Source: Myxococcales bacterium (GTDB lineage Bacteria; Myxococcota_A; Polyangia; Fen-1088). Taken from it: 35,866 nt of DNA. The stretch spans positions 3,444 through 39,309 of the forward strand of contig PMKP01000461.1 of the NCBI GenBank assembly GCA_003157775.1. The letters run 5' to 3'. Below the pieces are notes generated by a model. The model worked only from the letters and a program-made list of their open reading frames with translations, was not told where the DNA came from and searched no databases. Below are positions 1,122 through 34,901 of this stretch, piece after piece (position 1 is the first letter of the stretch; each line of letters begins with the position of its first letter). Made by a program: the position numbers and the translations under genes.

Positions 1122-1131
1122 TGTGATTTGT
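1122..1131 (+). promoter_or_regulatory. Partial copy of the TGYGATTT upstream box
   Basis: TGTGATTTGT matches the first ten bases of the box at 14209-14228, but the following ARACCC half is not preserved. It lies 112 bases before the pectate lyase start, further than in the three better copies (85-91 bases). It may be a decayed or chance copy. Confidence 0.25.
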
Positions 1132-1233
1132 GGCGCAGACGGACGGCGGCGCTGCCTGCCATCTGACCAAAACCGCTCTGGATCTGGCGAACGAGTGGAG
1201 CGAAACTATAGCGATATGCGGAAAGGTGGCACC

Positions 1234-3072
1234 ATGAGAAATCGCCAAATCCTGTTGGGCATCATAATCCTGAGCACGGCCCTTGTTGGCGCGTGCTCGA
1301 ACGACAGCACTGGAACTCAGGCCAGTGGAGGCACGGGAGGCAGCAGTTCAGTGGCGTCAGGCACTGGAGGCGAACAGGGAACAGGCGGCGGTTCCGGTTT
1401 GGGTGGCGCGACCGCAGGGCGATTGAGCAGCGGTGGTGCGGTGACAACCGGCGGTGCGATAACCACGGGAGCTGTGACCAGCGCCGGCGGGACGATGGGC
1501 GGCAACACGCCTACTGGCGGCTCGATCAGCAATGGCGGAGTGACGGGCACAGGTGGCACGACCCGCACGGGCGGAGCAGCCGGCAGCGGTGCCGGCGGAG
1601 CGACCGGCGGCACGACTGGCATGGGCGGCGCGGCCGGCGGCATCACCGCTACGGGCGGAGCGGCCGGCGGGAAGGGCGGAGCAACGGGTGGCGCGATCGG
1701 CGGCTCAGGCGGAGCGACAGGCGGTAGGGGCGGAACCACCAGCTCAGGTGGCAGCACGGGATCGGGAGGCGTAACGGCGCGGGGCGGGTCCTCGGGTTCC
1801 GGGGGCAGCGCTGGCCAATCCGGTTCAGGTGGTTCGATCCCGTCCGGCCCGGCCGTGGCATTTCCCGGCGCATACGGCTTCGGGAAGAAGGCGACTGGCG
1901 GGCGGGGCTACACCGTCTATCACGTCACCAGTTTGGACGACAGCGGCACGGGAACCTTCCGCGACGCTGTCAGCGCGGACAACCGCATCGTGGTCTTCGA
2001 CGTCGGCGGGTACGTCAATCTGCAAACCGCCGTGTCGGTCAAGAGCAACCTGACCATCGCGGGCCAGACCGCGCCCGGCGACGGCATCGGCTTCATGGCA
2101 AAAGAGGTTTCGTTTGACGCCTCTACGAACGTGATCGTGCGCTACGTGCGCTTCCGCCAGGGCATGCTCGATACTGGCACCGCCGGGGCCAAGAAGAGCG
2201 GGATCAACCTGCTCGATGGCAGCAACCTGATCTTCGACCATGTCTCGATCGAGTTCGCCCAGTACGACAGCATCGACGCGGTGGGGGCGACCAACATCAC
2301 CGTGCAGAACTCCATCATTGCGGACCCGACCGGGCAACAGTTCGGGGCGCACACCGAGATGACCGGGGGATTCTTCACCTGGTACGGTAACTTGTGGGCC
2401 AACGCCCATGGTCGGCAGCCCTTGGCCAAGTCCAACACCCAGTATGTCAACAATGTGGTCTACAACTACGGGTACGCCTATTGTGCCGGGGACACCAGCG
2501 GCGTCTTCTGGCACGACATCATCAACAACTACTTCATCGCAGGCCCGTCCACGACTAGCGCGGGAGACGACTATTACCAGATGAACAGCGGGCAAACCGT
2601 CTACGTCAAGGGGAATCTCCTAGACAGCGACAAGGACGGCACACTCAACGGCACGGATGCAGGTTCTCCGGGCGGCACGACCAAAGCGAACGCGGCGAAC
2701 TCCACGGATACCGCGAGCATGCCGACCACCAGCGCGGCGGACACGTACACCGCCGTGCTGGCTGGCGCGGGCCCCTCCCTGCACCGCGATCAGGTCGATT
2801 CTCTGGTGGTCGCCGACGTGAAATCGCTGGGGAAATCCGGCCAACTGTGGACGGACCAAACCGCAACGGGCCTCACCAACAGCGGCTATGGGACCTTGGC
2901 AGGCGGGACCGCGCCCGTTGACACCGACAAGGACGGCATGCCCGATGCCTGGGAAACCAAGTACGGCCTGAATCCCAACGACCCCTCCGACGCCATCGGC
3001 GACTTCGACAAGACCGGCTACACCAACATCGAGAAGTACATCAACGGGATCGTGGACGGGCTGTACCCATAG
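1234..3072 (+). CDS. PL1-like pectate lyase lipoprotein with Gly-rich linker
   Basis: Predicted surface or periplasmic lyase cutting polygalacturonate by beta-elimination. The ATG at 1234 is chosen because GAAAGG (1221-1226) sits 7 bases upstream and the protein then begins with a lipoprotein signal ending in LVGAC (Cys21). Residues about 29-206 are a Gly/Thr/Ser linker. The catalytic part starts near residue 208 with AFPGAYGFGKKATGGRG, the typical opening of bacterial PL1-family lyases, followed by TSLDDSGTGTFRDAV and right-handed beta-helix rungs (VIVRYVRFRQG, NLIFDHVSIEF, VNNVVYNYG). From Asp563 a DTDKDGMPDAWE calcium-binding (thrombospondin type 3-like) tail follows, as often seen in these enzymes. 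612 residues. The segment after FDHVSIEF lacks the SW-S-DE pattern common in the family, so exact substrate is open. An alternative ATG at 1216 would add six residues and has no better ribosome site. Confidence 0.85.
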   Translation: MRNRQILLGIIILSTALVGACSNDSTGTQASGGTGGSSSVASGTGGEQGTGGGSGLGGATAGRLSSGGAVTTGGAITTGAVTSAGGTMGGNTPTGGSISNGGVTGTGGTTRTGGAAGSGAGGATGGTTGMGGAAGGITATGGAAGGKGGATGGAIGGSGGATGGRGGTTSSGGSTGSGGVTARGGSSGSGGSAGQSGSGGSIPSGPAVAFPGAYGFGKKATGGRGYTVYHVTSLDDSGTGTFRDAVSADNRIVVFDVGGYVNLQTAVSVKSNLTIAGQTAPGDGIGFMAKEVSFDASTNVIVRYVRFRQGMLDTGTAGAKKSGINLLDGSNLIFDHVSIEFAQYDSIDAVGATNITVQNSIIADPTGQQFGAHTEMTGGFFTWYGNLWANAHGRQPLAKSNTQYVNNVVYNYGYAYCAGDTSGVFWHDIINNYFIAGPSTTSAGDDYYQMNSGQTVYVKGNLLDSDKDGTLNGTDAGSPGGTTKANAANSTDTASMPTTSAADTYTAVLAGAGPSLHRDQVDSLVVADVKSLGKSGQLWTDQTATGLTNSGYGTLAGGTAPVDTDKDGMPDAWETKYGLNPNDPSDAIGDFDKTGYTNIEKYINGIVDGLYP

Positions 3073-7637: not shown

Positions 7638-7729
7638 TGGATGTTCCGCGATGGCTCCTGGCCGGGGCCAACTGCTGATGTCCGTATGTGCTACGCATTC
7701 GCCAGAATGCGCAAGACCCAAAACACTGT

Positions 7730-7928
7730 GGAGGATGCGATGCGAACCAGAACTCAGAGAACTATCGAGGCTCTAGCGCGAGGCTCCTTGTCTCTGCTCC
7801 TTGCCGGCACCGTCATTTTGTTTCAGGGCTGCGACTCGACCGGCACGGGCTCCCAGCAGGCCACTGGAGGGTCAGGTTCAGGCGGCGCCGTGCAAACCGG
7901 GGGAGCTGCGAGCGGCGGCTCGATTGCT
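7730..7928 (+). repeat. N-terminal lipoprotein cassette, copy 2
   Basis: Second copy of the block at 5042-5240. GGAGG at 7730-7734 lies 5 bases before ATG 7740, and the encoded signal keeps ALARGSLSLLLAG and FQGC with Cys31 at the same residue number as in the GH2 protein. Confidence 0.75.
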
Positions 7929-10013
7929 GGCTCCGGCGGCCAGTCGGCGGGAAGCGGTGGCGCCGCGCCCAGTGGAGGCGTGGTGACCTCAGGCGGAACC
8001 GTTACATCCGGCGGTGTCGTTACCAGCGGCGGTTTGGTTGGCAAAGGCGGTGCTGCGCCCCTCTCGGGCGGGACGGTCACAAGCGGCGGCGTCGGTGTCA
8101 CCGGCGGCGTGACACCGATGGGCGGTGCGAGCAAGACCGGCGGCGCGGGCCCCTCTGGGGGCGTGGTCACCTCTGGTGGTGTGACGAGCACAGGCGGCGT
8201 CGCAGGCGGGGGAGGAGCAAGCAACCCAGTCACCGGGGGCGGCACCGGCCACTACCAGATGGAGAACCTGGATCGCGGCGTGGTGGCAGTAAAGGTCTCG
8301 GGCGGCGTCTACGTCGGGTGGCGCATGTTTGGCTACGAATACACCGGAACGGACAGCGATACTTCGTACAACCTCTACAAGGACGGCGCCAAGCTCACAA
8401 ATGTGACCGATAGCACTAACTACCTGGATGCGGCCGGGACTGCCAGCAATAAGTACTCGGTGAGCTGCGTGCTCAAAGGGACCGAGGGGCCGCAGTCTGC
8501 TGCGGTCACGCCCTGGGCGCAGCAATACACTAGCATCCCGCTGACACCGCCGGGCTCCCAGTACAATGCGAACGATGGAGAGCCAGGAGATCTCGATGGC
8601 GACGGCAAACTCGACATCGTGCTGAAGTGGGAGGGGAGCACGAAAGACAATTCCCAGGCGGGCGTCACCGACCCTGTCTATATCGCTGGATACACGTTGG
8701 CGGGCAAGCAGCTCTGGATTCTCAACCTGGGCCCGAACATTCGTTCGGGGGCGCACTACACGCAGATGTCGGTGGGCGACTTTGACGGGGACGGGAAGGC
8801 GGAATTTGCTTGCAAGACCGCGCCGGGAACCAAGGACGGAACCGGCACGTATCTGAGCACGGGACCCGCTGCCAGCGACGATGACAGCGCTGATTATCGG
8901 AATGCATCCGGCTACATTCTGACCGGGCCGGAGTATCTGACCGTGTTCGCTGGAGACACCGGCAAGGAGCTGGCGACGGTGGACTACCCGGTGCCGCGCG
9001 GAGTGGTGACCTCGTGGGGAGACGGCTACGGCAACCGGGTGGACCGCTTCAACGGCGGGATGGCGTTCGTGAGTGATACGGGCACTGGCAAGACCGCGAC
9101 CGGGCGGCCGAGCATTATCCAGCAGCGTGGGTACTACACGCGCCTGACGATGTCGGCGTACAACTGGCGGGATGGAGCCTTGACCAAGGCTTGGATTTTC
9201 GACAGCAATGACTCTGCGAATAGCAAAGCCGTTGGCCAGGGCGACCACTCAGCGATGGCGGCGGACGTGGACGGCGACCTTGCCCAGGAGATTCTCACCG
9301 GGGCGTTGACCATTGGCAGCGACGGAACCTGGCACTGCAGCTCGGGAATGGGACATGGCGATGCCTTTGATGTGAGCGAGCTTGTTCCGGGCAAGGGTAT
9401 GACCGCATTTTCGATTCACGAGGGGATGGGGGGTATGGATGCTCATAACGCTGACACCTGCGCGTTCTACTTCAAGACTACTGAATCCGGCGTCGACTCC
9501 AACCGTGGACGTGCCGACTATGTCGGCCCGGGCGACGAAACCAGCGCATCGTGTTACTGTGGATCGTGCAACGAGCATCTGGCCCTATGCAGCACCGGTG
9601 CCACATCAGTTACCGTTTCACCCGGGACCAACTTCGTCATCTACTGGGACGACGATGAATGGCGTGAGAGTGAAAACGCCACGTCGATCACCAAGCCCAG
9701 CAGCGGCGCAACCTTGCTGAGCGCGAGCGGCTGCTCATCGAACAACGGCACGAAGTCCACCCCGACGCTAACCGCAGACCTACTGGGCGATTGGCGTGAG
9801 GAGATTGTCTACCGTGAGTCGACCAACGCGAACTTGCGCGTGTACACAACGACAACCGTGACCAAGCGCCGGATCTACACGCTCATGCACGATGCGACCT
9901 ACCGGGCGCAGGTCGCGTTCGAGAATGCAAGCTACAACCAGCCGCCCCACCCGGGATTCCAGATCAACCCCAGCATGCCCGCTCCGCCAGTGCCCAACAT
10001 CTATGTGAAATAG
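7740..10013 (+). CDS. PL11 rhamnogalacturonan lyase lipoprotein
   Basis: Predicted endo-acting rhamnogalacturonan lyase cutting the Rha-GalA backbone of rhamnogalacturonan I. ATG 7740 follows GGAGG by 5 bases; an earlier in-frame start at 7641 has no signal peptide. Lipobox FQGC (Cys31), linker about residues 40-168. The PL11 domain starts near residue 171 with MENLDRGVVAVK and GVYVGWRMFGYE, the family's typical opening, and runs to the C-terminus. Calcium-type loops DLDGDGKLD (from Asp284) and DFDGDGKAE (from Asp347), the YNWRDG motif, and the late DLLGDWREEIVYR and PPHPGF motifs are all as expected for YesW-like enzymes. 757 residues, of which about 585 are catalytic, the usual family size. 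It is the last gene of the forward set and converges on the DUF362 gene. Confidence 0.92.
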   Translation: MRTRTQRTIEALARGSLSLLLAGTVILFQGCDSTGTGSQQATGGSGSGGAVQTGGAASGGSIAGSGGQSAGSGGAAPSGGVVTSGGTVTSGGVVTSGGLVGKGGAAPLSGGTVTSGGVGVTGGVTPMGGASKTGGAGPSGGVVTSGGVTSTGGVAGGGGASNPVTGGGTGHYQMENLDRGVVAVKVSGGVYVGWRMFGYEYTGTDSDTSYNLYKDGAKLTNVTDSTNYLDAAGTASNKYSVSCVLKGTEGPQSAAVTPWAQQYTSIPLTPPGSQYNANDGEPGDLDGDGKLDIVLKWEGSTKDNSQAGVTDPVYIAGYTLAGKQLWILNLGPNIRSGAHYTQMSVGDFDGDGKAEFACKTAPGTKDGTGTYLSTGPAASDDDSADYRNASGYILTGPEYLTVFAGDTGKELATVDYPVPRGVVTSWGDGYGNRVDRFNGGMAFVSDTGTGKTATGRPSIIQQRGYYTRLTMSAYNWRDGALTKAWIFDSNDSANSKAVGQGDHSAMAADVDGDLAQEILTGALTIGSDGTWHCSSGMGHGDAFDVSELVPGKGMTAFSIHEGMGGMDAHNADTCAFYFKTTESGVDSNRGRADYVGPGDETSASCYCGSCNEHLALCSTGATSVTVSPGTNFVIYWDDDEWRESENATSITKPSSGATLLSASGCSSNNGTKSTPTLTADLLGDWREEIVYRESTNANLRVYTTTTVTKRRIYTLMHDATYRAQVAFENASYNQPPHPGFQINPSMPAPPVPNIYVK

Positions 10014-29490: not shown

Positions 29491-29581
29491 CGCAGGGGCG
29501 AAGCAACTTATCCGTGAAGCAATCACCCCCGGGACGCCCTACAAGAGTCAGGTGCATTCTGTAGTACAATCACAAGTTGAG

Positions 29582-30187
29582 ATGGGCCAAGCATGTCTTT
29601 ACGACATCGGCCGTCGGCGAGGTACGTCCGGCGGTGGCGGATTTGAGAGCATCTATCAGGAGTGGTTTGAGGAGGTCTGCTGTTGGATCCGGGCGCTAGG
29701 CGGCCCGGATGCCGATCGCGACGACATTGCCCAAGAGGTTTTCCTGGTGGTACGCCGCCGTCTTGAGGCTTTTGACGGCGCCAACCTGGCGGGCTGGCTC
29801 TATCGCATCACCCAGCGTCAAGTCAGAGATTTTCGCCGTCGCACCTGGATAAGGCACATCTTCACCAGGGGCCGCATGGACGAGCCAGATACCCTGCCGC
29901 ACACTAGCCAGAATCCTGCGGCCGCGCTCGAGCGGAAGGAGAACCAATGCGTGCTGTACGCGCTGCTTGGCAAGATCCGCGAGGCACGGCGTAGCGCCTT
30001 CATTCTTTTCGAAATCGAAGGGTTCTCAGGCGAGGAGATTGCGCAGATTCAGGGAGTTCCACTGAACACGGTTTGGACTCGGCTTCATCACGCCCGCAAG
30101 GATTTCTTTGCACTCGCTGCGAAACAGCACAGATCTCTGGCCCGGCGCCCAAGTGAAGCGAGCACGATTGGGAGAGCAGAACCATGA
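29582..30187 (+). CDS. ECF-type RNA polymerase sigma factor, second
   Basis: Region 2 is seen in FESIYQEWFEEVCCWIRAL, ADRDDIAQEVFLVVRRRLEA and NLAGWLYRITQRQVRDFRRR; region 4 in LLGKIREARRSAFILFEIEG and EEIAQIQGVPLNTVWTRLHH. ATG 29582 is given; GTG 29552 would add ten residues and neither has a strong ribosome site. 201 residues from 29582. Its stop overlaps the next gene's start as ATGA. Its region 4 motif GVPLNT is shared with the first sigma factor of the window, but the rest is clearly different, so the two are not a recent duplication. Confidence 0.87.
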   Translation: MGQACLYDIGRRRGTSGGGGFESIYQEWFEEVCCWIRALGGPDADRDDIAQEVFLVVRRRLEAFDGANLAGWLYRITQRQVRDFRRRTWIRHIFTRGRMDEPDTLPHTSQNPAAALERKENQCVLYALLGKIREARRSAFILFEIEGFSGEEIAQIQGVPLNTVWTRLHHARKDFFALAAKQHRSLARRPSEASTIGRAEP

Positions 30188-30960
30188 TGTCGCCACAACA
30201 ACCTCCGCCCACGGGTCGGGACACCCTGGAACAGGATCCCGTGCGGCTGTGCGTGGATCAAGACAGGGTCACGGATCCTTCTGCCGAATGGAGCCTGTCC
30301 CTGCTTCGCCAGGCTACCCCTTACCAGGCTCCCGCGGGACGGAAAGAGCGCGTGTGGCTGGCTCTGCCGAGGGAGCGCCCGTACCGGCCTGGGAAGCTGC
30401 GCTTCGCTCTAGCCGCGGCTGCACTGCTCGTGTCCGGCGTCTTCGCAAGCGCTGCGGTGGCGCAATGGCCGGTCTGGTTGGCGGGTGTGATCGATCGCAT
30501 TGTCCCGAGCGCCCCGAGTACCACGCCGCCGATTCCTGCCAAGCGGCTGCGCCCGGCGCCCAGCGAGATGCCTCCGGCGCCGGTGCTGCTGCCTCTGCCC
30601 GCCTCAGGGCCGGTTGCCACGCCGACGACCCCGACTGGCGAAGGGGCGGCTGCACGACCCAAGCATGCGTCAAGACTTGCATGGCCGGAAGCAGATATGG
30701 GGCCTCTCTTGGACGCCATGCGTGCCCTGCGCGTAGAACGGAATCCCCTTCGCGCGCGTGCGCTACTGATCGCGTATCTGGATCACCATCCCAATGGCAA
30801 GCTGTCTGAAGAGGCTTTGGTAATGCTGATCGAGGCGGCTGCGGGCAACGGCGACAGCGATGCCCCGGCACTTGCGGCACGCTATCTCAAGCTGTATCCG
30901 CGAGGACCGTTTCGCGGCATGGTCGAACGGATGTTGGCGGCGACGAGCAAAGGGCCGTAG
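30184..30960 (+). CDS. Probable anti-sigma factor without zinc motif
   Basis: Placement and plan suggest an anti-sigma factor: it overlaps the sigma stop by 4 bases, has a cytoplasmic N-terminus of about 72 residues, one transmembrane helix (about 73-93, FALAAAALLVSGVFASAAVA), a Pro-rich spacer and a helical TPR-like C-terminus (MRALRVERNPLRARALLIAY, EEALVMLIEAAAGNGDSDAP, AARYLKLYPRGPFRG). No His-X3-Cys-X2-Cys motif is present, unlike the first module. 258 residues. The family match is weak; the assignment rests on context and architecture. Confidence 0.65.
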   Translation: MMSPQQPPPTGRDTLEQDPVRLCVDQDRVTDPSAEWSLSLLRQATPYQAPAGRKERVWLALPRERPYRPGKLRFALAAAALLVSGVFASAAVAQWPVWLAGVIDRIVPSAPSTTPPIPAKRLRPAPSEMPPAPVLLPLPASGPVATPTTPTGEGAAARPKHASRLAWPEADMGPLLDAMRALRVERNPLRARALLIAYLDHHPNGKLSEEALVMLIEAAAGNGDSDAPALAARYLKLYPRGPFRGMVERMLAATSKGP

Positions 30961-31061: not shown

Positions 31062-32934
31062 ATGGATCGAAATGCGCTGCCCGGTCGGGCGTGCGACAAT
31101 ACGAGGATGCACCTGAAGACGGAACACGACTAATGTCACGTGAGAGAGCGAGGCGTTTGCGACTCACGGGGCACCATGAAACGCCAGCGCGGATCGCCGG
31201 TGTTCTTGCCTGGTTGCTCGCAGCTAGCTGCGCGCCGGTCGCCACGAGTGAGGGCGCCGATCAGGATGCTGCGGCCGGAACCTCGGGCGGCGCTTGCAAG
31301 GGCTCGGCTAGCTGCACAGGCGGGAAAGCGGCTGGTGGCGCAGGCGGGAATGCTCAGCTTGGCGGGGCGGGCGGTGGTGGGTCGACGGGAACCGCAGGCC
31401 GGACAGCGACGGGTGGCTCGGCGAACACAGGTGGCTCGGCGAAGACAGGTGGAGCGGCTAGCAGCGGAGGCCAGACGGCGTCAGGTGGCTCGACGGAGAC
31501 AGGTGGCGCGACGGGGACGGGCGGCTCGACCGGGACGGCTGGCTCGGGCGGAAAAGCAGGCGCGACGGGCGCAGGCGGCAGTAGTTCAGGCGGCACAACC
31601 GGCACGACCTGCGGCGGTGGAGGCGGCTGCGGCGGAAGCAGCTCGACCTCCGACGCAGGCAGCGACGCGCCCGTGGATGCGCCCCTTGTCTGCATAGGTC
31701 CCACGGTTTCCGAGGACCCTTCTCTGCGCCGCCCTGCACCCCGTCCCGACGCCGGCGCAACCTCCTGCGGTGCCTGGGCATTGACCAACGGTGTTTGCTG
31801 TGCCCAGTACTGCAGCGCCGACAATGAATCCCAAGACTGTACTTCGTGCGGAGGGCCGGGTTCCGCGGAGTGCACGGTGGTGAACAGCAAGGCTTGTGCC
31901 TCGGGCCAGTGGCCAGAAGTCCATTGTGTCAGCGACAATGAGCCGTGGCACTACTCCCGCTCTACCCATTTCGGGCTGACCTCCGACGGGGCCTGCGACT
32001 TCGGCCTCTATGGCCTCTGCACGACGAACTACAGTGCCACTGGCCAGTTCGCCGACAAATGCCGCAGCTTCTGCACAGCGCACCCGGATCTCTGCAGTGA
32101 TCCTGACACCACCACATTTCGTGGAAACTTCGCGGCCCCCGACGGCGACTACTACACACAGTTCTGGCCCAGTCTCCCGGGTGACAACGACAACTACCTG
32201 AGCTGTGGCGAGTGCTTCCAACTCGTGCGCACCAAGAATGACGGCACCGACTACCAGCCCGGAGAGACCGGCTACACGCCGCCCATCGTGCTCCAGATTA
32301 TCGATTCCTGCCCCTGCGCGGCCAATCCCAAGTGGTGCTGTGGCTCGGGACGTGACCATTGCGGCGAAGTTCCTCTCTTCAAGTACGGCTGTCCACTTCC
32401 GCCCGCAGAGGTTCCCCGGGCAAGCGACGACCCCGAGCCCAATGAGAGCCTTCACCTGGATCTCTCGGACATCGCCATGTCGCGCTTGCAGAGCGGTGAC
32501 CCTACCGGGCCAATGCCCGATGGGGTAGTCCCAACCCGGTACCGTCGCGTGCCTTGCCCGGTGAAGGGCAACATCCACATCCGGCTGCACAATTTGCCGA
32601 GCGAGTACTATTTCGCTCTCAGTGTGGTCAATGTCTCGGGGTTCGGTGCGGTCATCAACGTCGAAACCAGATTGCCGTCCGGCACGTGGCTGTCGTTGAT
32701 GCGGGATCCCAACTACTCGCAGTCCCGGCCGCAGGAACGCGGCGGCAGGTGGGTGCTTCCGCAGGGGGCCCAAGTTTCCCTCCCGCTGGCCCTGCGATTC
32801 ACCGATGCATCGGGACGCTCGGTGGTATCCGAGCAAGCCGTGACGGCCTGGCCTCCATCCGACGCAAACGACTTCACCTACATCGACACTGGTGTGCAGT
32901 TCTGACATCAGCGAAGCGGCCGCGATTCTCGCTC
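31062..32934 (+). repeat. Tandem gene duplication, unit 1 (pairs with 33016-34901)
   Basis: The similarity starts at GGATCGAAATGCGC about 70 bases before the start codon and ends after the shared ATCAGCGAAGC just beyond the stop. It therefore includes the upstream region (TGCGACAATAC, GGATGCACCTGAAGACGGAA in both), the whole gene and a short 3' flank. Confidence 0.85.
31133..32905 (+). CDS. Expansin-like lipoprotein, tandem copy 1
   Basis: Predicted non-hydrolytic wall-loosening protein. ATG 31133 is chosen because it is the start shared with the second copy; a one-base difference just before it breaks the longer frame. Signal ends LAASC (Cys33). Linker about residues 50-165. A Cys-rich segment follows (GVCCAQYC, DCTSCGG). 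The expansin D1 (double-psi barrel) shows THFGLTSDGACDFGLYGLC, SCGECFQLV and IDSCPC with Asp391; HLDLSDIAM has Asp443, matching the two conserved Asp of expansins. D2 begins VVPTRYRRVPCPVKGNIHI, then YYFALSVVNVSGFGAVINVE and WVLPQG. 590 residues, more than twice a typical bacterial expansin of about 200-250. The end TYIDTGVQF is conserved between copies. Confidence 0.85.
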   Translation: MSRERARRLRLTGHHETPARIAGVLAWLLAASCAPVATSEGADQDAAAGTSGGACKGSASCTGGKAAGGAGGNAQLGGAGGGGSTGTAGRTATGGSANTGGSAKTGGAASSGGQTASGGSTETGGATGTGGSTGTAGSGGKAGATGAGGSSSGGTTGTTCGGGGGCGGSSSTSDAGSDAPVDAPLVCIGPTVSEDPSLRRPAPRPDAGATSCGAWALTNGVCCAQYCSADNESQDCTSCGGPGSAECTVVNSKACASGQWPEVHCVSDNEPWHYSRSTHFGLTSDGACDFGLYGLCTTNYSATGQFADKCRSFCTAHPDLCSDPDTTTFRGNFAAPDGDYYTQFWPSLPGDNDNYLSCGECFQLVRTKNDGTDYQPGETGYTPPIVLQIIDSCPCAANPKWCCGSGRDHCGEVPLFKYGCPLPPAEVPRASDDPEPNESLHLDLSDIAMSRLQSGDPTGPMPDGVVPTRYRRVPCPVKGNIHIRLHNLPSEYYFALSVVNVSGFGAVINVETRLPSGTWLSLMRDPNYSQSRPQERGGRWVLPQGAQVSLPLALRFTDASGRSVVSEQAVTAWPPSDANDFTYIDTGVQF

Positions 32935-33015
32935 ACCGGTCATCGTCCTGCTGGGTGAGCGTCATGGGCAGGAGCCATGCACTAGAGCGGCGCGACGTCG
33001 TGCCGCTGCAACAGA

Positions 33016-34901
33016 ATGGATCGAAATGCGCCGCCCGGTCGTGTGTGCGACAATACAAGGATGCACCTGAAGACGGAACGCGACCTAATGTCGCGTGAGG
33101 GGGCGAGACGTTTTCGTCTCACGGGACACCACGAAACGCCAGCGCGGATCGCAGGTGTTCTTCTTTTCTCCGGTTTGCTCGCAGCTAGCTGCGCGCCAGT
33201 CGCCACGAGCGAGGGCGCCGATCAGGATGCTGCTGCCGGCGCTTCGGGCAGGACCGCGACTGGCGGCGCAGGTGGGAACGCTCAGCTTGGCGGGGCGGGC
33301 GGTGGTGGGTCGACGGGAACCGCAGGCCGGACAGCGACGGGCGGCTCGGCGAACACAGGTGGCTCGGCGAAGACAGGTGGCGCGTCTGGCAACGGAGGCC
33401 AGACGGCGTCAGGCGGCTCGACGGGGACGGGCGGCTCGACCGGGACGGCGGGCTCGAGCGGGAACGCAGGCTCGGGCGGGAAAGCAGGCGCGACGGGCGC
33501 AGGCGGCAGTGGTTCAGGCGGTACCACCGGCACTGCCTGTGGCGGTGGGGGCGGCTGCGACGGAAGCAGCTCGACCCCAGACGCCAGCAGCGACGCGCCT
33601 GTGGATGCGTCGCTTGTCTGCATAGGTCCCGCGGTTTCAGAGGACCCCTCTCTGCGTCACCCTGGTCCCCGTCCTGACGCCAACTCTTCCATGTGCGGCA
33701 ACGTCAATTGGGTAGTGACCGACGGTGTGTGCTGTGCTGAGTACTGCAGCAACGACGATAGGTCTGAAAGATGCGACTTGTGCGGAGGAACAGGCTCGGC
33801 CCAATGCACGGTGGTCAGCAGCAAGGCGTGCACCTCGGGCCAATGGCCGGAAGTCCATTGTGTCAGCGACAACGAGCCGTGGCACTATTCCCGCTCCACC
33901 CATTTCGGGCTGACCTACGGCGGCGCTTGCGCCTTCGGTCTCTATGGGCTCTGCACCAAAGCTTACACATTCACGGACTCGCAGCTCGGGGGGCTATGCG
34001 CCACCTTCTGCAACACCTACCCGGATCTCTGCCAAGACCCCGCTACCACCACGCTGAGGGGGAACTTCGCGGCCCCTGACGGCGACTACTACACGCAGTT
34101 CTGGCCTGATCTTCCCGGCGACAACGACAACTATCTAAGCTGCGGCGAATGCTTTCAGCTCGTGCGTACCAAGAAGGATGGCACCGACTACCAATCTGGA
34201 GAGACTGGCTACACGCCGCCGATTACACTCCAGATTGTGGATTCCTGCCCGTGCGCGGCCAATCCCAAGTGGTGCTGTGGCTCGGGACGTGACCATTGTG
34301 GCGAGGTTTCGGATTTCAAGTACGGCTGTCCGCTTCCGCCCGCGCCGCCCGTGCCACCGCTCGACCACGACCCTCTACCCAACGAGAGCCTGCACCTGGA
34401 TCTCTCGGACATCGCCATGTCGCGGCTGCAGACGGGGGACGCAAACGGGCTGATGGTGGATGGGGTGATCCCAACCCGATATCGTCGCGCGCCCTGCCCG
34501 GTGACAGGCAACATTTACATCCTGCTGAAGAATGGGGGTGAGTACTACTTTGCTTTCAGCGTGGTCAACGTTTCCGGCCTTGGATCGCTGGTGAACGTCG
34601 AAGCCAGGCTCCCGTCCGGTGACTGGGTTTCGCTGATACGTGACCCCAACTACGAGCCGTACAGGCCGCAGGAACGCTTCGGCACCTGGGTGCTTCCGCA
34701 AGGGAAGGGGCCATTCACACTGCCCTTGGCCCTGCGGTTCACGGATCCGTCAGGACGTTCGGTGGTATCGGAGCAAGCCATCACGAGTTGGACTCCGCCG
34801 GCCACCACCGACGCAACCCTCAAACAGTTCTACCAGGATTTCTACTACATCAACACCGGCGTGCAGTTCTGAGATCAGCGAAGCATTGTGGCCGCGGGCA
34901 A
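33016..34901 (+). repeat. Tandem gene duplication, unit 2
   Basis: Second unit of the duplication at 31062-32934. The upstream region, signal and linker are almost identical in DNA, while the domains diverge more. Confidence 0.85.
33088..34872 (+). CDS. Expansin-like lipoprotein, tandem copy 2
   Basis: Paralogue of 31133-32905 with the same order: signal ending LAASC (Cys35), linker, Cys-rich segment (GVCCAEYC, CDLCGG), expansin D1 with THFGLTYGGACAFGLYGLC, SCGECFQLV, IVDSCPC (Asp385) and HLDLSDIAM (Asp438), then D2 with VIPTRYRRAPCPVTGNIYI and YYFAFSVVNVSGLGSLVNVE. 594 residues. Differences cluster in the Cys-rich segment, in the loop after GLYGLC, and in a short insert before the YINTGVQF end. 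An in-frame ATG at 33061 is rejected because the equivalent frame in copy 1 ends at once. It lies 182 bases after copy 1 and may have its own promoter because the upstream region is duplicated. Confidence 0.85.
   Translation: MSREGARRFRLTGHHETPARIAGVLLFSGLLAASCAPVATSEGADQDAAAGASGRTATGGAGGNAQLGGAGGGGSTGTAGRTATGGSANTGGSAKTGGASGNGGQTASGGSTGTGGSTGTAGSSGNAGSGGKAGATGAGGSGSGGTTGTACGGGGGCDGSSSTPDASSDAPVDASLVCIGPAVSEDPSLRHPGPRPDANSSMCGNVNWVVTDGVCCAEYCSNDDRSERCDLCGGTGSAQCTVVSSKACTSGQWPEVHCVSDNEPWHYSRSTHFGLTYGGACAFGLYGLCTKAYTFTDSQLGGLCATFCNTYPDLCQDPATTTLRGNFAAPDGDYYTQFWPDLPGDNDNYLSCGECFQLVRTKKDGTDYQSGETGYTPPITLQIVDSCPCAANPKWCCGSGRDHCGEVSDFKYGCPLPPAPPVPPLDHDPLPNESLHLDLSDIAMSRLQTGDANGLMVDGVIPTRYRRAPCPVTGNIYILLKNGGEYYFAFSVVNVSGLGSLVNVEARLPSGDWVSLIRDPNYEPYRPQERFGTWVLPQGKGPFTLPLALRFTDPSGRSVVSEQAITSWTPPATTDATLKQFYQDFYYINTGVQF

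Follow-up and report, generated by a model that had tools for sequence, protein, structure and literature searches.

Canonical bacterial expansins of the EXLX1 type (BsEXLX1/YoaJ, and those from Xanthomonas, 9ms4, Streptomyces, 9ms5, and Clavibacter, 4jcw) consist of two domains, a D1 of approximately 100 residues and a D2 with an aromatic platform (W125, W126, and Y157 in BsEXLX1), and share equivalents of Thr12, Asp71, and Asp82. Fungal swollenins and loosenins also contain an expansin/GH45-like D1; swollenins are modular, with a linker and a CBM1 (PMC12779228, PMC10909974), whereas loosenins lack D2, and loosenins also lack the base Asp of GH45 cellulases and are non-lytic (PMC9888185). In subfamily C of GH45, PcCel45A loses all activity in the D114A mutant and retains 10% in D85A, with Asn92 put forward as its base, although this residue is missing from some members of the subfamily (PMC5829257); in GtCel45A the Asn loop is fastened by Cys90 and Cys99 (PMC10909974). 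Lipoprotein signals occur in one third of diderm expansins, Myxococcales among them, according to the statement in PMC10501053 that cites de Sandozequi 2022.

Two intact lipoprotein expansin genes

The window, a 35,866-nucleotide stretch of DNA from a genome of 5.48 Mb (87% complete), carries two tandem expansin genes on the plus strand, which a first-pass annotation had placed at 31133–34872. Both open reading frames are intact at these positions: EXP1 (31133–32905) encodes 590 aa and EXP2 (33088–34872) encodes 594 aa when read from the ATG at 33088, and the two proteins are 80% identical over their full length. An in-frame ATG at 33061 is a possible alternative start for EXP2. At 31107–31135, the EXP1 counterpart of this upstream in-frame start (MHLKTERDL) runs into a stop through a one-base difference, and the EXP1 start is at 31133. 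A conserved DNA element (GATCG.AATGCG...TGTGC.A.AAT) lies just 5′ of both copies, at 31066–31112 and 33016–33066, and of the single-copy relatives.

The lipoprotein signal, Gly-rich linker, Cys-rich segment, and enlarged D1 described in the annotation were recovered in both copies. Signal peptides end in a lipobox of LAAS followed by C33 in EXP1 (31133–31231) and by C35 in EXP2 (33088–33192), as identified with a lipobox rule that passes 1.4–1.9% of shuffled N-termini (1.9% for EXP1). The linkers (31265–31690 in EXP1 and 33220–33621 in EXP2) contain 37% and 35% Gly, respectively, with 35–37% over residues 45–185 of the two proteins. Each Cys-rich segment holds nine Cys (residues 212–265 of EXP1, 31766–31927; residues 203–258 of EXP2, 33694–33861); the segment is kept in relatives, and searches of Pfam and the PDB gave no relative for it. 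D1 spans 31955–32557 in EXP1 and 33889–34497 in EXP2, with approximately 200 residues (about T278–C475), twice the canonical bacterial length, and is followed by a CBM63-like D2 (32558–32902 and 34498–34869). Purifying selection acts on D1-D2, with dN/dS of 0.13–0.27.

Expansin fold and conserved residues

Pfam searches, run as a protein-level scan and as a genome search, matched only Expansin_C, just under the cut-off in the former and at the cut-off in the latter. A profile built from 14 relatives gave the beta-expansin 2hcz as its top PDB match (E 7e-6), followed by the bacterial expansin 9ms4 and the GH45 enzyme GtCel45A (8bzq). An AlphaFold model of medium confidence (pLDDT 67, pTM 0.66) matched the two-domain plant, bacterial, and fungal expansins 1n10, 2hcz, 4jcw, 7wvr, and 2bh0 in Foldseek over approximately 320 columns, with E values of 5e-14 to 1e-10 and target-normalised TM scores of 0.66–0.79. 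A second, poorer model, of EXP2 from a shallower family-only alignment (pLDDT 54), was left out of the fold search. Since the matches cover both domains, namely the double-psi barrel (DPBB) of D1 and the Ig-like D2, with E down to 5e-14, the expansin assignment, which a predicted fold lacking either element would contradict, stands. We assign both proteins to a distinct family of lipoprotein expansins in Polyangia, with a predicted fold of the expansin superfamily.

The equivalents of Thr12, Asp71, and Asp82 are T278, D391, and D443 in EXP1 and T271, D385, and D438 in EXP2. The Asp positions are exactly those annotated (391/443 and 385/438); both are invariant in 15 family members, and the Thr is conserved in 12 of 12. 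The D2 platform is Tyr-Tyr-Tyr and near-invariant (Y492, Y493, and Y528 in EXP1; Y486, Y487, and Y522 in EXP2).

Plant beta-expansins (EXPB1, 2hcz; Phl p 1, 1n10) provide the best PDB matches in both sequence and fold and share a YRRVPC-like junction and a gap-free D2 pattern with the EXP family, but identity is 16–18%, HFDL is replaced by HLDL, and the Asn loop, insertions, anchor, and linker are found on the EXP side. Unlike the EXP family, neither swollenins nor loosenins are lipid-anchored.

A narrowly distributed family outside the EXLX1 clade

Searching with a profile of the Cys-rich segment, we found the same architecture in 13 of 318 genomes of the class, seven from the same genus, three from a sister genus, and three from three genera of another family, with two further weak matches left out of this count. 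Those that carry a name are “Myxococcales bacterium” fen MAGs, and a search for close relatives on plasmids found none. Beyond Myxococcota, genomes were searched with EXP1 peptide patterns only, and wider occurrence is possible.

A 32-row, 194-column tree, with few eukaryotic sequences, is split (98/99) between an EXLX1 clade of bacterial, fungal, and most myxococcotal expansins and a set in which the EXP family stands with plant expansins, two other myxococcotal types, and PcCel45A; relations within this set are not separated. Because of long branches in this tree, a plant affinity of the EXP family is unsafe, and with so few eukaryotic sequences a transfer from plants to bacteria is a hypothetical origin. 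Relative to EXLX1 expansins, the EXP family falls outside the clade, has a D1 about twice as long, and, in addition to its Cys-rich segment, carries a GH45-C-like loop. What is unusual about the locus is this distinct Cys-rich, large-D1 expansin family, with the GH45-C-like loop that it keeps.

The two further types outside the EXLX1 clade (L012, L016, and L048; L038 and L040) are also lipoproteins, one with a C-terminal extension and one with a Gly-rich linker, and in both the Cys of the D1 loop is preceded by an Asn. The source genome additionally encodes an expansin of the ordinary EXLX1 type that may carry a lipobox (G000:C405, L041) and a second partial match (G000:C277, L105).

Lipid anchoring is common in the phylum

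The annotation had presented a membrane-tethered expansin as exceptional, a claim that did not hold up. A search of 379 genomes of the phylum detected expansins in 53, and among the best 30 myxococcotal expansin loci (L053–L082), two of them truncated, a lipobox is present in all 28 others (25 by the rule and three, L068, L081, and L074, by inspection). The trait had already been reported for Myxococcales, as far as the account of de Sandozequi 2022 in PMC10501053 extends, and the lipoprotein signal is shared phylum-wide. Lipidation and the linker are ordinary for the phylum. The myxococcotal lipoprotein expansins sampled here are mostly of the ordinary EXLX1 type, to which the EXP family adds the Cys-rich segment and the large D1. 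Three plasmid-encoded expansins from outside the myxobacteria (Vibrio, Clavibacter, and Curtobacterium) have no lipobox.

An n/h region and lipobox Cys are found in EXP1, EXP2, and the relatives L018–L021, L028, and L029. Extrapolation of the M. xanthus +2/+7 rule to +2 Ala and +7 Ser suggests sorting to the outer rather than the inner membrane. In the source genome, the same lipoprotein/Gly-linker scaffold also carries a true GH45 (TRYWDCC motif; L106, G000:C170), GH28-like and PL11-like proteins identified by reading their sequences, and, within the window, a pectate-lyase-like lipoprotein at 1123–3072.

The gene pair closes a pectin-utilisation cluster

The region at 1123–30960 is a rhamnogalacturonan/pectin cluster, and the EXP pair sits at its end, behind a conserved ECF sigma module. 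In addition to the pectate-lyase-like lipoprotein, the cluster encodes a PL11 rhamnogalacturonan lyase (7641–10013, plus strand; RGL11_C, 2e-156), two GH2, two GH29, a SASA esterase, two ECF sigma genes, and two proteins bearing MYXO-CTERM sorting tags, of which one is weakly GH43-like. Nearest to the expansins are a lipoprotein with a sub-threshold polysaccharide-lyase match (PF14099; 27602–28447, minus strand), an ECF sigma factor (29552–30187, plus strand), and a membrane protein (30184–30960, plus strand) with a possible anti-sigma role; all three are syntenic with an expansin in three relatives. In G386, a second copy of the family has a relative of the SASA esterase close by. The plant-wall target put forward in the annotation fits the PL11, GH2, GH29, esterase, and pectate-lyase-like neighbours.

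A GH45-C-like loop and the proposed role

Residues D85, N92, F95, and D114 of PcCel45A align to D391, N398, W401, and D443 of EXP1 (D385, N392, W395, and D438 in EXP2) in three MAFFT modes, and the stretch from D85 to Cys96 is also aligned by hhalign (PcCel45A) and by HMMER (GtCel45A, 8bzq). All 15 members have the Asn, the Trp, and both Asp, and the GH45-C acid Asp114 and proposed base Asn92 both have equivalents (D443 and N398). Cys393 and Cys402 of EXP1 match the loop-fastening disulfide of GtCel45A. Canonical EXLX1 expansins lack the Asn/Trp/Cys loop that the D1 of EXP keeps. The annotation mentioned neither this loop nor the lack of conservation of the tandem arrangement. Tyr67 was dropped as evidence, since the register of Thr16, Tyr18, and Tyr67 against PcCel45A is unstable across alignments.

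We consider it likely that EXP1 and EXP2 are cell-anchored, non-lytic wall looseners that cooperate with surface enzymes. The pectin neighbourhood and the enzymes on the same scaffold speak for a wall loosener working with such enzymes, and the absence of the GH45 base Asp, as in non-lytic expansins, speaks for non-lytic action: the base Asp of subfamilies A and B is missing from the family, whose alignment has no Asp after the STHF motif, at the position of HiCel45A Asp10. The sorted protein would sit in the outer membrane, with a linker of approximately 140 residues keeping D1-D2 off the cell. D2 would bind cellulose microfibrils through its three Tyr, while the D1 groove, with its two Asp, would grip a glucan chain and loosen cellulose-matrix contacts without cleavage, which could let lyases and hydrolases on the same kind of anchor reach pectin and cellulose. 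Expression would probably be switched by the adjoining ECF sigma factor, a link of position only. Action confined to the zone where cell and plant tissue touch, as the annotation proposed, is a hypothetical feature of such a protein.

Non-lytic action is not certain, however, because the Asn/Trp/Cys loop retained in D1 is that of active GH45-C enzymes. D1 could instead be a working GH45-C-like endo-beta-glucanase joined to a CBM63, in which Asp443 would serve as acid and Asn398, fixed in place by Cys393/Cys402, as base, as the alignments, the invariant Asn, the PcCel45A mutants, and the GtCel45A disulfide would have it. We nevertheless find this doubtful. The full nine-residue proton relay of PcCel45A is absent, two of its residues being changed (Gln93 to Pro or Ser and Ser14 to Arg) and Asn105 not placeable; the C-terminal part that bears Trp154 in PcCel45A is replaced by D2 (CBM63); the Pfam scan contained no GH45 match; Asn92 is not universal even in subfamily C; and the genome already holds a true GH45. 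Improbable, too, is a two-domain expansin family with a GH45-C catalytic core that, tethered to the surface, would both loosen and slowly cut glucan; such a family would be a living link that joins expansins to GH45 enzymes.

Myxobacteria are predators, and the target might also be the cell's own envelope or that of other bacteria (peptidoglycan), as for the DPBB proteins RlpA and MltA, or the pair might act as polysaccharide-binding surface adhesins. Although DPBB folds are found in lytic transglycosylases (PMC9888185), we regard this as very unlikely given the expansin-type D2 with its aromatic platform, the plant-pectin neighbours, the recurrent association with a carbohydrate esterase, and a scaffold shared with plant-wall enzymes.

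As a cell-anchored wall loosener, the pair would act inside a pectin-utilisation locus, on the lipid-anchored scaffold of the enzymes themselves, in myxobacteria with fen-MAG relatives, and so bears on how plant matter gets opened in such soils. What is new here is a distinct expansin family with a partly cellulase-like active site; lipoprotein signals had already been reported for Myxococcales. The family bears on whether expansins ever cleave glucan and on how they relate to GH45 cellulases, as one protein joins the two-domain expansin architecture with the GH45-C Asn loop, and point mutants give a direct test.

An old duplication kept or regained locally

The tandem arrangement is local, as three syntenic relatives (L017, L019, and L020) carry one copy in a conserved order of PL-like gene, g28408, ECF sigma factor, membrane protein, and single expansin, followed in L017 and L019 by an MFS gene. 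EXP2 is closer to these single copies (85–88% identity) than EXP1 (72–76%), EXP1 branches outside all type-A members (support 91/67), and dS between EXP1 and EXP2 is 0.74, against 0.45–0.70 between other genomes. Together these results indicate that the pair goes back to an old duplication and was either kept or regained at this locus. A recent duplication was ruled out, the dS between the copies exceeding most values between relatives. For the N-terminal and linker part, dS between the copies is 0.29, which suggests possible gene conversion between them. In G090:C5, two lipoprotein expansins of the ordinary EXLX1 type (L010 and L015) form a tandem that arose independently.
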